A stretch of DNA of 64,000 nucleotides from Acaryochloris sp. IP29b_bin.148 (GCF_028285565.1 NZ_JANQOY010000033.1:1-64000); one strand, 5' to 3'; shown: positions 24,699 to 28,986, counted from the first letter of the stretch. The notes: a model not told the origin generated them from the letters alone. A program made the numbers and translations.

Positions 24699-24769
24699 GC
24701 GGGTGTAGTTTAGTGGTAAAACCTTAGCCTTCCAAGCTAATGATGGGGGTTCGATTCCCCCCACCCGCT
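24699..24769 (+). tRNA. tRNA-Gly (anticodon TCC)
   Basis: Complete 71-nt cloverleaf: acceptor GCGGGTG/CACCCGC, D arm GTTT/AAAC, anticodon stem TTAGC/GCTAA with loop CTTCCAA (anticodon TCC), T arm GGGGG-TTCGATT-CCCCC, discriminator T. CCA is not encoded. The Tn7-like element begins 14 bases past its end, so the gene was left intact by the insertion. Confidence 0.97.
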
Positions 24770-24778
24770 TTATCAAGT

Positions 24779-24783
24779 AATTC
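24779..24783. repeat. Target-site duplication, left copy (AATTC)
   Basis: AATTC directly precedes the outer TGTACA of the left end and is repeated exactly at 27,819-27,823 after the right end. A 5-bp duplication is the hallmark of Tn7-family transposition. Confidence 0.88.
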
Positions 24784-24841
24784 TGTACATTCCAGAATTA
24801 TTTGTCCGTTTCTGTACATTCCAGAATTATTTGTCCGTTTC
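24784..24841 (+). repeat. Tandem 29-bp duplication of the left tip
   Basis: Two exact 29-bp copies (24,784-24,812 and 24,813-24,841), each starting TGTACATTCCAGAATTATTT. Each contains a putative transposase-binding core (CCAGAATTATTTGTC). Only the outer copy abuts the target duplication. Confidence 0.92.
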
Positions 24842-25057
24842 CCAGAATTAGTGTCACAAAAACATAGAAATGTGACTGGTCGAAGTGGATGTATGCGAGA
24901 TCACTCGGCGAAGAATAAAACGCAGAACCCTTGCCCCTTAAAGCTTTCTCGATCTCTCAGACCCATCCAATCTCGATGCTAGTTTAATAATATTCCTAAC
25001 TTTAAGAAGACCAAATAGAATGTACTGGTTCGTTTTCCAGAATTAGTGTCGTGTAAC
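24842..25057 (+). repeat. Left subterminal region, copy 1 of a ~216-bp direct repeat
   Basis: Runs from CCAGAATTAGTGTCAC to GTGTAAC and is about 80% identical by eye to 26,640-26,854. Both copies hold two TTCCAGAATTA-type sites, a GTCACA...TGTGAC inverted pair, and a conserved middle (TCGGCGAAGAATAAAACGC). Homology stops sharply at GTGTAAC, where the cargo begins. Confidence 0.85.
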
Positions 25058-25061
25058 ATTC

Positions 25062-26480
25062 ATGAGGCTGGCGGCATGGCAGAGAAATCGAACCAAGTGT
25101 TGCACCGTAGGCAGAGTTACTGCCATCCGGCGGTCAAGCCGAACCGATTTGACTCCGAATACCACTCCTCCGAAAATCGGCGTGTGTTTAGTTTGTTGCA
25201 ATAAACCCGTAGTGTTTACATTTAATCCGAAACAGTTCCTGAGTCAACTTGGTAGCGTCACACTGCCAAGAGGCGCAGAGGAAGCCGTACTATGCGTCTT
25301 TAAGACCAGCCTTCAAAAGGAAGAAGGGGACTGTCTGCGTCCTTTTTGTGTTCTTACCGAGCGCAGTCACGATCAGAACAGCACAAAATGGATTGATCCA
25401 ATACGGGCTGAGACCGGTTTGCCAAAACTGAGCCAGCTTTCATGCTACGGAGTAAGAGCAATTCAGCTTGAAATGAGAGAGGACGAACTGACGATAGTTG
25501 GAATTACCGACGTCCCGCGAAGACAAATTCATGACAAGTTCATGGGGGTGATATGGGGTAGCTACCTAGAACTGGATGCAATGGGGATTGCAGATATTAG
25601 AGCTTGTCATGTGACACGGAAATCTATTCGTGAGACTGTCGAAACACCGATTGCGAGGTATCAGGGTGGTCGGTATTACACACGCAATTTTGAGGAAAAA
25701 ACAGAGAAGGTGTTTTCTCAGAATGGAGGGGAGGTTAATAGATTTCTCGTTGAGCTGGAACGTCTTCCAGGTCAGCCAGTTCCTACTTCTGCGGGGTGCT
25801 ATAACTACCCGTACTTCAGCGAGAATTTGCCGATCAGTATTTTCTCTGAAGATGTGTTTCATGGCCGACACGCCATGCATCAGGTATTTACTACAGCAGT
25901 AAGTCGATTGGCCAGGCGTGGTCGCGGAGGTGCAGCCATCGTTCTCGATGGTTCCGAGTCAATCGACAACGTAAAAACCATCAAGCCACCCGAATTGTTC
26001 GAGCATAGAGATCGAAACGGCACTGAGATGCCATGCACATCTGTCATTAACTGGACGGCATGGCAAGCCATTTGGCAGCACCTTGAGCAAGAGAGAAGAC
26101 CGATTGATCAGCTCCCACAAGAATCTAAGGATAGGAAAGATTATGTGAAATGGATCATTGAAAGACTCTCTTACCAACTAAATGAGTACGCAAGTATGCT
26201 GTGCGACATGATGATCCCTGATGGGGCTTTAGTTCTGGGAAAATTCCTCGAACCCGTAGCAATGGGAGTCAAACTGGAAGTTTCGGATGTTGGGGATTTG
26301 AGCCAAGAAGCGAATGACTATTTGGAAAAAAATATGAAGGGGATGCGTCATCGGTCAATGGCTTCCGCAATTAATTGTCTGCCGCGTTCACACGGTTTTG
26401 TCATCTCAAATGACGGACCAGTTACACTGTTTCGAGGAAGAGAGGTCGAGGGAAAAGCCGTTGAGGTTTTGAAGATGTAA
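25062..26480 (+). CDS. Predicted DACNV-DisA_N protein (diadenylate cyclase-like), transposon cargo
   Basis: Up to 472 aa. The first 50 codons look non-conserved, and GTG 25,212 (VFTFNPKQFLSQLGSV) may be the real start. The N-terminal half (about 51-190, with SLQKEEGDCLRPFCVLTE) resembles the DACNV-type sensor that precedes DisA_N domains. The C-terminal half carries the cyclase motifs in order: HAMHQVFTTAVSRLARRGRG, DGALVLG (about 385) and RHRSMASAINCLPRSHGFVI (about 429), corresponding to DGA and RHR of diadenylate cyclases. A soluble enzyme making c-di-AMP or a related nucleotide is inferred. The gene begins right after the GTGTAAC boundary. No effector gene is next to it. Confidence 0.7.
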   Translation: MRLAAWQRNRTKCCTVGRVTAIRRSSRTDLTPNTTPPKIGVCLVCCNKPVVFTFNPKQFLSQLGSVTLPRGAEEAVLCVFKTSLQKEEGDCLRPFCVLTERSHDQNSTKWIDPIRAETGLPKLSQLSCYGVRAIQLEMREDELTIVGITDVPRRQIHDKFMGVIWGSYLELDAMGIADIRACHVTRKSIRETVETPIARYQGGRYYTRNFEEKTEKVFSQNGGEVNRFLVELERLPGQPVPTSAGCYNYPYFSENLPISIFSEDVFHGRHAMHQVFTTAVSRLARRGRGGAAIVLDGSESIDNVKTIKPPELFEHRDRNGTEMPCTSVINWTAWQAIWQHLEQERRPIDQLPQESKDRKDYVKWIIERLSYQLNEYASMLCDMMIPDGALVLGKFLEPVAMGVKLEVSDVGDLSQEANDYLEKNMKGMRHRSMASAINCLPRSHGFVISNDGPVTLFRGREVEGKAVEVLKM

Positions 26481-26639
26481 ACATGCCCCCAACATCTGAC
26501 GTAGGTGGTGTTGGGCCACATAACTATGGTTATACGACTGCGAGGCTAAAGGAGCATTGTTTCTAACAAGCTGACCCATTAAACGACCGGCCTCATGCCC
26601 TGCAAGTGATTTGTCGTTTGCTAGGAGCAATGCACTTTT
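26481..26639. other. Module 1 right edge and inter-module spacer
   Basis: Holds the hairpin CCCAACA/TGTTGGG (about 26,488-26,515) just after the cyclase stop, the 18-bp repeat at 26,523-26,540, and an inverted pair AAACGAC (26,581-26,587) / GTCGTTT (26,613-26,619) after CTAACAAGC, which could be a decayed attC. No gene is credible here. Confidence 0.5.
26523..26540. repeat. 18-bp cargo-boundary repeat, copy 1
   Basis: ACTATGGTTATACGACTG, one mismatch from 27,452-27,469. It lies on the far side of cargo 1, as copy 2 does for cargo 2. On the minus strand it reads CAGTCGTATAACCATAGT. Confidence 0.8.
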
Positions 26640-26854
26640 CCAGAATTAATGTCACAAAATTAGAAATGTGACTGGTGGCTAGGAGATGTCTAGTAGATCA
26701 TTCGGCGAAGAATAAAACGCGGAACCTTTTCCCCTCATAGCCTTCTGGATCTCTCAGACCTACCCAATCTCGATGCTAGTTAAATAATCTTCCTGACTCC
26801 AAGTGAATTAGATAGGATTTTGTGGTTCGTTTTCCAAAATTAGTATTGTGTAAC
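26640..26854 (+). repeat. Left subterminal region, internal copy 2
   Basis: Diverged second copy of 24,842-25,057, with no exact TGTACA tip (only TGCACTTTTCCAG). It ends at GTGTAAC (26,848-26,854), exactly where copy 1 ends, and is followed by unrelated cargo. Confidence 0.85.
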
Positions 26855-26937
26855 GTCTGAGGTAACCGATTGCAAACGGAAACCGCTCCATTCGTAACCG
26901 ACTGTTTTGAGTACTCCGGTTCACCGATTTGTTAGGC
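26848..26937 (-). other. attC: Integron attC site
   Basis: Read on the minus strand: R'' box GCCTAAC (fits RYYYAAC), spacer, L'' GGTGAACCG, variable loop, L' CGGTTACC, spacer, R' GTTACAC (one mismatch to GTTRRRY). L'' and L' pair with a single unpaired G, the extrahelical base typical of attC, and TAAC pairs with GTTA. About 90 bp, within the usual size. The upstream gene's stop codon lies inside R'', as in true cassettes. Confidence 0.75.
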
Positions 26938-27432
26938 GTCGGCGTTCCGATCATTGGCACGCTTGGCTTCCCCGGATACGTGCATCGAATCTACTGCGTT
27001 TGCGAGCACTTGTGCATAAGGACCGTTCAGTTCTTCGGCAACAAACCCCGACGCAAGGCACTGAAACGTGTAGTCCCACAGAAACGCGAAATAGTGCTTG
27101 ATTCTCTCCCAATACCTCGGATCATACTGATGATGGGCCGCGTTCGTTCTCTCTGCCTCTACCTTCCAAGGTGAGTTGTGAACAATACATAGCTGCCCCG
27201 GTGGGGCCTTTCCTGCCAGAGCTTGCGAGTCAAGTTCTGAGATATTGGGTGTCCCGTAGCAGACACTTTCAGGTTCTTGGAAACGCAGAACTACCCATCT
27301 ACCGGGGACCCTGGCAGGATAGACGAAAAACACAGCTAGGCCGTCCGATAAGGCGGTCCCTTCTGGTTGGCCATGGCCATATGCTATTGGCCACTCGATC
27401 GGTTCTACGGTCACTTGGTTGAAGTCGAACAC
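26932..27432 (-). CDS. Hypothetical protein in an integron-type cassette
   Basis: 166 aa, GTG start at 27,432 and TAA stop inside the attC R'' box. I recognise no domain. The protein is soluble, beta-rich at the start (FDFNQVTVEPIEWPIAYG) and helical near the end (YWERIKHYFAFLWDYTFQCL). Three cysteines are scattered. The frame runs almost the full length of the cassette (about 27,451 to 26,855), which is normal for integron cassettes. The closed position between attC and an attI-like sequence supports a real captured gene rather than chance. Promoter and function unknown. Confidence 0.6.
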   Translation of the reverse strand: MFDFNQVTVEPIEWPIAYGHGQPEGTALSDGLAVFFVYPARVPGRWVVLRFQEPESVCYGTPNISELDSQALAGKAPPGQLCIVHNSPWKVEAERTNAAHHQYDPRYWERIKHYFAFLWDYTFQCLASGFVAEELNGPYAQVLANAVDSMHVSGEAKRANDRNADA

Positions 27433-27818
27433 TTGTATATACGGTAGCCTGACTATAGTTATACGACTGACTGACGTATAAATCCTCTACATAGAATATT
27501 AGATTTCAAGTGTCGTGTAATGCTCTGATTTGGATAGAAAAGCGACACATTGGTAGTTATCACTTATCTATTAGCTCACTAGAAATATCCATCTCAAGAA
27601 CAACAGTGCCATCAATAAAATTTGTAGATTTGGCACTGAAGACAAGAAATGACACCTAATTCTGGAAAGTCCTATAAAGAATTGACATTTAATTATGAAA
27701 AGATAATCAGTTGAGAAAAAAACTAAATTTCTCCGAAGTCCTTATCTGATATATTCCTCAAAGATTTAAAGCTGTGACATTAATTCCAGAAAAGTGTCAT
27801 TTAATTCTGGAATGTACA
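27433..27818. other. Right end of the Tn7-like element
   Basis: AT-rich and non-coding. Transposase-site-like repeats lie at 27,649-27,669 (ATGACACCTAATTCTGG), 27,682-27,700, 27,773-27,793 (TGTGACATTAATTCCAG) and 27,794-27,818, the last ending in TGTACA. No CRISPR-like repeat is visible. Confidence 0.75.
27452..27469. repeat. 18-bp cargo-boundary repeat, copy 2 (attI-like position)
   Basis: ACTATAGTTATACGACTG. On the minus strand the cassette would begin within GTCAGGC right after CTATA, one change from the integron core GTTAGGC, so this is where an attI-like site would be. By position only. Confidence 0.5.
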
Positions 27819-27823
27819 AATTC
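27819..27823. repeat. Target-site duplication, right copy (AATTC)
   Basis: Exact match to 24,779-24,783, directly after the right TGTACA. Confidence 0.88.
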
Positions 27824-27988
27824 TGGCTCGAATCTTTTGGTTTAACTTGTAAAGGACTGACTTTTCCCAGCCACATCATCAGTAAGGTCAAGGGTGTAGC
27901 GATATCATCCGTCTTAATGGATATGGCAGTCTGGGCTGCTACTGCGTAGCAAAGATTTACATCAGGGATAGCTGACTTCAGGTCTTCA
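27824..27988 (-). pseudogene. Possible coding remnant beside the insertion
   Basis: The minus-strand frame is open with protein-like composition (ANLEDLKSAIPDVNLCYAVA, LTLLMMWLGKVSPLQV) but has no start codon; a TAA stands directly upstream of it. It points toward the tRNA and may be the residue of an older tRNA-associated element. No family recognised. Confidence 0.25.
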
Positions 27989-27996
27989 AGATTGGC

Positions 27997-28689
27997 TTAC
28001 TCAGATTTTGTTTTATTTCTGTAAACAATATCGAAATAGCTTCCTACTTTTGCCCGGCTAGCAAACTTATCACGAGCGTATTCAGAGTATCCATTCTCCA
28101 TCATAAACGCGCTGATATCTGAGAGCTGACAGCAGCCTCCATAAGACTCAAAATCTGGCACTTCTAATTTGATAAATTCAAAATGCTTTAAAACAGGAAG
28201 ACTACCCTGTAAGACCAGCATCTCTGATCCTTGCGTGTCCATAATGAGCGCTTGGTAACGCGTTACATCTATTTGTTCTTTTTTGAGAAGTGAGTCCAAA
28301 GTGATGCTAGCGAGAGAAAGAGTAGTGGTGAACTCAATATTAGGCCAAATCTCTTTATGCCCTTTCAAATCTAGAATGGACGAGGATTGCCCATTATTAT
28401 TGGAGATAAAAAAGTCATATTTCTGATGGTCAACTTCTGTCACTAGATATTGAAATGCGCGCTGTTCTTTATAGCCGCTCAAGTTGGCTTGGAGTTGAGT
28501 AAAAACCTCAGGGATGGGCTCAATCCAAATAACATCTAAATCGTACTTTTTATAGAGATTCCGTTCTTGTCCAACATTAGCGCCAATATGAATCACCCCA
28601 GTAACCTGTTGTAGGAATTGGTTTGGGTCTTCTGCTAATGCTTTCCTAATGCGATATAAAAGTATTTTGCTTTTAGCAACAATCATCAT
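27997..28689 (-). CDS. FkbM-family methyltransferase
   Basis: 230 aa. A class I SAM-dependent methyltransferase fold of the FkbM type: VTGVIHIGANVGQERNLY is the SAM-binding glycine loop, VIWIEPIPEVFTQL the acidic beta-2 region, SSILDLKGH and ITLDSLLKK the family's middle motifs, and ALIMDTQGSEMLVLQGS the post-core acidic motif. FkbM proteins O-methylate sugars, polyketides or other small molecules, often in polysaccharide or secondary-metabolite loci. No such cluster is adjacent, so the substrate is unknown. It lies just outside the transposon and is not part of it. Confidence 0.87.
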   Translation of the reverse strand: MMIVAKSKILLYRIRKALAEDPNQFLQQVTGVIHIGANVGQERNLYKKYDLDVIWIEPIPEVFTQLQANLSGYKEQRAFQYLVTEVDHQKYDFFISNNNGQSSSILDLKGHKEIWPNIEFTTTLSLASITLDSLLKKEQIDVTRYQALIMDTQGSEMLVLQGSLPVLKHFEFIKLEVPDFESYGGCCQLSDISAFMMENGYSEYARDKFASRAKVGSYFDIVYRNKTKSE

Positions 28690-28986
28690 TCAATTTCTGC
28701 GTTTGCTGCAGCAAGGTACAACAATCACAACTGAATAAAACTGCTCCTAACGTATCACCAAGGTAATCGCTTGTCTATTCAATCTTAGGGGAGGGGTGAA
28801 TGAAAAAAAGCGCGTTTAGTTCAACGTGGAAGCCCCGCGCCATACTCTTTGATTTGGCGTCAGGAGATCGAGCGCATGACCGCAGGGAGTCATTCAAGGG
28901 GATGTATTACTCCCCTTGAAATTGGCTAGACTGCAAGTCTGTTCTGCATGACAGCTTTTTGAACTTAAATCTTCGTTCGTTCTTTC
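28690..28986. other. Intergenic stem-loops, possible IS605-type remnant
   Basis: No gene. It contains GC-rich GAAGCCCCGCGCC with a matching GGCGT (about 28,830-28,862), reminiscent of omega-RNA or IS605 end sequences, and a perfect 10-bp stem TTCAAGGGGA / TCCCCTTGAA at 28,893-28,920 with an 8-nt loop. No U tract follows on either strand, so a terminator is unlikely. Confidence 0.4.

Follow-up and report, generated by a model that had tools for sequence, protein, structure and literature searches.

The 64-kb stretch of Acaryochloris sp. IP29b_bin.148 DNA analyzed here (the window) contains, at positions 24784-27818, an element of about 3 kb that combines the ends and the target geometry of type V-K CASTs with none of the gene content that defines an autonomous CAST. 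We consider it highly probable that this segment is a non-autonomous V-K CAST element, made up of two tandem units that have become fused, for which the V-K machinery was supplied in trans. Most likely, the element rode on the guide RNA and the enzymes of another transposon.

Boundaries of the element

The first 17 bp of the element (24784-24800, TGTACATTCCAGAATTA) are the exact reverse complement of its last 17 bp (27802-27818). The tips carry the TGT/ACA of Tn7-like transposon ends, and a 5-bp target-site duplication, AATTC, lies immediately outside them, as is characteristic of such ends (Table 1). The exact 17-mer tip occurs three times in the 5.07-Mb draft genome, always within this element. 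Moreover, searching the 64-kb window for TTCCAGAATTA-N1-3-TG[T/A]C with up to two mismatches returned ten candidate TnsB-type sites, all ten inside the element and none in the rest of the window, and the same pattern gave no match when the element was Markov-shuffled 10 times. At least three of these predicted sites belong to the left end and four to the right end. A sequence-only reading of this stretch had described the inverted tips, the AATTC on both sides and the repeated subterminal sites at both ends, and our analysis confirms that all of these features are real. A 5-bp direct repeat is common by itself, and the whole pattern could in principle reflect chance inverted repeats in a segment that is not mobile. 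We give this explanation practically no weight, as it is already contradicted by the restriction of ten specific sites to the element and by the homology to an independent insertion in a sister genome (G001, contig C32), which breaks precisely at the tip. The end architecture, which matches that of V-K CASTs, also speaks against it.

Table 1. Features of the element and of its attachment site (window coordinates).
Feature	Position	Strand	Remarks
tRNA-Gly(UCC) gene (tcc), attachment site	24699-24769	+	ARAGORN; Rfam tRNA, 76 bits; points toward element
GTA, fits Cas12k GTN PAM	24716-24718	+	directly 5' of the 17-nt anchor-spacer match
Anchor protospacer AAACCTTAGCCTTCCAA within tRNA gene	24719-24735	+	identical to anchor spacers of G001 and G004
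Target-site duplication AATTC, left copy	24779-24783	+
Left end #1	24784-25057	+	tRNA-proximal, CRISPR-side type; tip TGTACATTCCAGAATTATTTGTCCG; duplicated 29 bp; sites 24790, 24819, 24840, 25035
Cargo ORF 1	25062-26480	+	472 aa, start codon uncertain
Scrap, possible remnant of right end #1	26523-26540	+	18 bp, 17/18 identical to 27452-27469 (inner right-end sequence); suggestive only
Left end #2, tip lost	26636-26854	+	second tandem element; 81% identical to left end #1
Cargo ORF 2	26932-27432	-	166 aa; 86% identical to G001 L182:1387-1905, likewise adjoining a right end
Right end #2	27441-27818	-	distal, TnsB-side type; tip TGTACATTCCAGAATTAAATGAC; sites 27651, 27684, 27776, 27796
Target-site duplication AATTC, right copy	27819-27823	+
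Candidate TnsB-type sites	24790, 24819, 24840, 25035, 26363 (weak), 26638, 27651, 27684, 27776, 27796

Internal anatomy

The sequence-only reading took the segment for one complete element. The intact outer tips and the duplication agree with this view, but the interior does not. At the left tip, 29 bp are perfectly repeated in tandem (24781-24809 and 24810-24838). Farther inside lies another left-end block, which has no tip and shows 81% identity to left end #1 along 170 bp. The simplest reading of these repeats is that the segment is a composite, in which two elements of the same family, inserted in tandem, were probably fused by a junction deletion. This deletion would have taken away right end #1 together with the left end #2 tip.

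Tandem V-K elements are also found in the sister genome G004. Exactly 5 bp (ACAAG) beyond the V-K CAST that occupies tRNA-Gly in this genome, the left end of another element starts, and the same 5 bp flank the left end of the CAST. ACAAG/CTTGT is common to the junctions (L091 120-200, L088 2860-2900), which points to repeated insertion at one position, and from the matching 5 bp we infer that the two contigs hold one element. By analogy, the G004 tandem illustrates how tandems of the window type may arise.

Cargo genes and absence of transposition machinery

Domain searches of the proteins of the element revealed no transposase domain, in keeping with the sequence-only reading, and tnsB, tnsC, tniQ and cas12k are all absent from it. 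The CRISPR array, tracrRNA and anchor guide that autonomous V-K CASTs carry near the left end are missing as well; matches within the element to an anchor guide or a truncated-repeat remnant were at shuffle level only. The draft genome, which is 87% complete, yielded no TniQ, Mu-transpos_C, TnsB or Cas12k, so an assembly gap may conceal a helper.

As for the cargo, the ORF 1 product has weak similarity to DAC (diadenylate cyclase) near its C-terminus, with a sub-threshold Pfam DAC hit (E = 0.09). Two motifs that we take to be those of the DAC family, DGA and RHR, are both visible in it. A DAC protein is a possible lead for ORF 1 and not an assignment. Its single-sequence structure prediction (pLDDT 32) was too low to serve for fold comparison. 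The plasmids and viral contigs searched hold no homologues of ORF 1, the plasmid search recovered neither a homologue of ORF 2 nor the right end of the element, and PADLOC and NCBIfam provided no named relatives or function for either cargo protein.

The tRNA-Gly target site

In cyanobacterial V-K CASTs, the tRNA gene is directed at the left end, near which the array lies, and a 17-nt anchor spacer is used with a GTN PAM located 46-82 nt from the left end (PMC9938897). The window element has the same geometry. The tRNA-Gly gene, which is the only RNA family returned by the Rfam search, ends 14 bp before the left tip and contains a GTA PAM followed by an exact 17-nt match to an anchor spacer. 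The distance from PAM to end is 65 bp, compared with 62 bp in G004, 53 bp in G001, 61 and 79 bp in G002, and 57 bp for a second G004 CAST, located at tRNA-Gly(CCC). V-K-type ends are present at the tRNA-Gly site in four of the seven genus genomes (G000, G001, G002 and G004), and V-K CASTs have reused this site. In the other three (G003, G005 and G006), no V-K-type ends were found at tRNA-Gly, the downstream regions are uninterrupted, and the flanks are too divergent for alignment to the AATTC site. The sequence-only reading had proposed looking for an empty site. A base-exact one (...CAAGTAATTCTGGCTCG, with a single AATTC) was not recovered among the genus genomes compared, because the sequence immediately to the right (27819-28968) has no counterpart in any of these relatives.

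Autonomous V-K CASTs in sister species

Two sister Acaryochloris MAGs, G001 (IP29b_bin.137) and G004 (IP29b_bin.176), carry V-K CASTs at tRNA-Gly(UCC), with their CRISPR-side ends at the tRNA gene and beside the same GGDEF gene. The order in G004 is TnsC, TniQ, a regulator, a 682-aa Cas12k (NF038191, E = 2e-134; ShCas12k structures, 5.6e-58), a truncated repeat with the anchor AAACCTTAGCCTTCCAA, the TGTACATTGCAAAGC left end, and tRNA-Gly. The G001 CAST is organized in the same way and has five full repeats; its Cas12k likewise matches NF038191 and the ShCas12k structures, but the frame is broken by one TAA, whereas that of G004 is open. The TnsB proteins of the two are 93% identical and match ShTnsB structures (2.4e-108). 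In both genomes, the truncated repeat is followed by a truncated anchor guide (G001 L089:5521; G004 contig C412, about 5297) that is identical to window positions 24719-24735. The second G004 CAST (L148, contig C280, 72-2578) also has a GTA PAM; its tRNA-matching spacer, GAACGTCAGCTTCCCAA, directly follows the last full array repeat, without a separate truncated repeat.

These findings sharpen the original assignment from a Tn7-like to a type V-K element, and the autonomous relatives with TnsB/TnsC/TniQ and Cas12k that the sequence-only reading had anticipated do exist, at tRNA-Gly in G001 and G004 and, with TTCC[A/G]GAATTA ends, in the filamentous cyanobacterium CCT1. With V-K CASTs of the ShCAST/AcCAST/AnCAST kind, G001 and G004 included, the window element shares the TGTACA tips, the layout of the 23-nt terminal motif, the 5-bp duplication, spaced candidate TnsB sites at both ends, a left end that faces the tRNA gene and a GTN PAM with a 17-nt anchor protospacer at 46-82 bp; with G001 and G004 it also shares the tRNA-Gly target. 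It differs from V-K CASTs in lacking tnsB, tnsC, tniQ, cas12k, tracrRNA, array and anchor guide, and from those of G001 and G004 also in its two-unit composition and in its core motif, TTCCAGAATTA instead of TTGCA.

Two types of ends

The ends of the autonomous CASTs of G001 and G004 contain TTGCA-type sites and not the TTCCA-type sites of the window element, and hence the window element may have been inserted by a different TnsB. Within Acaryochloris, no autonomous CAST of the TTCCA type was found. The site core varies among other V-K CASTs as well (GTGAC, TTAAC, TTCGC). In CCT1, Cas12k, an array and a TGTACGTTCCGGAATTATTTGAC left end adjoin tRNA-Pro, and TnsB/TnsC/TniQ lie behind a right end, TGTACGTTCCAGAGATAAATGACAC, which closely resembles that of the window element (TGTACATTCCAGAATTAAATGACAC); likewise, TGTACGTTCCAGAGATAAATGACACTTTACAGAATTAGTGTC in the CCT1 right end is a close match to TGTACATTCCAGAATTAAATGACACTTTTCTGGAATTAATGTC in ours. 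Sites of the TTCC[A/G]GAATTA type are present on both the Cas12k-side and the TnsB-side ends of CCT1, indicating that V-K TnsB proteins with such a preference exist. The CCT1 system differs from the window element in having its own TnsB/TnsC/TniQ and Cas12k and in being anchored at tRNA-Pro; the end bodies are unlike beyond the sites, and the two CCT1 ends lie on separate contigs (L149, L101). Altogether, the window ends have the site layout of the Acaryochloris V-K CASTs and the core of the CCT1 sites. The proposed search for such ends together with machinery succeeded in CCT1 but not in the draft genome of the element itself.

In G002, the tRNA-Gly gene is followed by a scrap of a TTGCA end and then by a TTCCA element. 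Just inside the TTCCA end that adjoins tRNA-Gly in this genome lies a unit of about 540 bp (L071 8527-9070), in which long inverted repeats (GGTCTTGTCC..CTTTTGGTGAATCGAAATTATTAGGTAGAAG) surround a 124-aa ORF.

Related elements without machinery

Contig C32 of G001 holds a right end (78% identical over 378 bp) and a 166-aa cargo protein (86%) closely related to those of the window element. It differs in its locus, which adjoins a universal stress protein gene, and in an extra MreB-like ORF, and there is no tnsB beside its right end. The alignment with the window stops exactly at TGTACA. Hence, a machinery-less unit occurs at an independent site, with homology ending at the tip; this applies to the right boundary only, as the C32 left end was not recovered. 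The right end of the window element also matches G004 C44 and contig C78 of its own genome, where this third right end is associated with a different cargo. A second element of the same genome (C143:22574-23824; L063 7575-8825) is 1,251 bp long, machinery-less and flanked by a CTTCT duplication. It is intergenic, just upstream of an acetate-kinase-like ORF, and retains a decayed anchor guide, which implies descent from a complete CAST.

The block of left end #1 recurs in G003, in G004 and, at 80% identity, on the Acaryochloris plasmid pMB05. The plasmid copy (L038 15001-15253) is a solo, somewhat decayed left end near a defence-rich region (type I restriction, McrBC, NACHT), and no V-K machinery is annotated in the parts of pMB05 examined. 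In G004 L166 (G004:C142, from 110), a TTCCA-type left end precedes genes for a PvuII-like endonuclease and a DNA methylase, with a small helix-turn-helix ORF between them; these may be the defence cargo of another TTCCA-type element. Bacterial MITE-like and other non-autonomous transposons are similar in having intact ends, no transposase and several copies that differ in content; in contrast to them, the window element carries genes, multi-site Tn7-type ends and a site defined by an RNA guide.

Probable mobilization in trans

According to the sequence-only reading, intact ends without machinery mean that the element was moved in trans. The ends alone do not prove this, because an internal deletion after insertion would look identical; it is the G001 C32 copy that lends support to the claim. 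Internal deletion might have stripped a complete V-K CAST at tRNA-Gly of its array and of tnsB, tnsC, tniQ and cas12k, in which case the element would never have moved in the absence of its own machinery. The composite indeed bears at least one deletion (the tipless left end #2 and the scrap of right end #1), and the decayed guide of the C143 element attests to complete-CAST ancestry. However, tnsB is the first gene at the right end of autonomous V-K CASTs (PMC9938897), and this position is held by the same unrelated cargo gene in the window and in G001 C32. Since these are two different loci, tnsB was already missing from this arrangement before it dispersed. The TTCCA-type ends on pMB05 and in G003 and G004, which have no visible machinery although several of them are cut by contig ends, also argue against decay in place, which we regard as unlikely for the element as a whole; for the first part of the composite, machinery loss after insertion is possible. 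Movement in trans is an inference, well supported by the right end and the cargo of G001 C32.

Alternatively, a Cas12k-free Tn7-like transposase, either TnsB/TnsC only or with a TniQ/TnsD that recognizes tRNA genes, might have placed the element, the match to the V-K guide being incidental. Elements with only TnsB and TnsC and with V-K-like sites exist in Nostoc, and G002, a genome without Cas12k, has copies of TnsB/TnsC/TniQ. Nevertheless, the insertion lies 65 bp from an exact V-K anchor PAM-protospacer, at the same tRNA and in the typical V-K orientation, and over half of the genus genomes have V-K-type ends at this site. The G002 TnsB/TniQ loci (L059-L061) were considered as relatives and discarded, as they belong to a different Cas12k-free family and lack matching ends. 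This alternative is, in our view, even less probable than decay in place. Regarding the Nostoc contigs, L093 (1-3953) and L094 (1-3954) encode TnsB proteins 99% identical to each other. L093 starts and stops at inverted tips (TGTCCATTAAAGAATTATTTGTC) and encodes TnsB (57% to Acaryochloris V-K TnsB) and a TnsC-like protein, along with one small ORF, but neither TniQ nor Cas12k; it is apparently a complete relative of V-K CASTs that has only TnsB and TnsC.

Under the preferred reading, mobilization by V-K machinery acting in trans, Cas12k, TniQ, TnsC and TnsB would have been supplied along with a 17-nt anchor guide that targets tRNA-Gly(UCC). Binding of the tRNA gene would have taken place at the GTA PAM, and a TnsB recognizing TTCCAGAATTA sites would have placed the element 65 bp downstream, its left end facing the tRNA, and generated the AATTC duplication. 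A later element would then have inserted at the same PAM distance, between the tRNA and the older element, before a deletion fused both.

Implications

CASTs are usually studied as complete machines with their own guide and enzymes. V-K CASTs and their homing to tRNA genes are already known, and no description of natural non-autonomous V-K elements was found in the open-access literature searched, a search that left subscription papers and most preprints outside. Our results raise the possibility, which we hold tentatively and place slightly short of probable, that Acaryochloris harbours a lineage of V-K elements that carry only cargo and have an end specificity of their own (TTCCAGAATTA). Such elements would borrow the Cas12k and the anchor guide of another CAST in trans, home to tRNA-Gly, stack in tandem and spread their cargo, for example a putative nucleotide cyclase or a PvuII-like restriction system. 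If so, they would be RNA-guided satellites of CASTs, and RNA-guided transposition would be shared in trans in nature, with one guide and one tRNA site serving a community of elements. Machinery-less elements would also reveal which end sequences suffice. Finally, the presence of TTCCA and TTGCA ends together at one site would allow the end specificity of TnsB to be tested in a natural setting, along with the question whether this specificity permits stacking despite target immunity.
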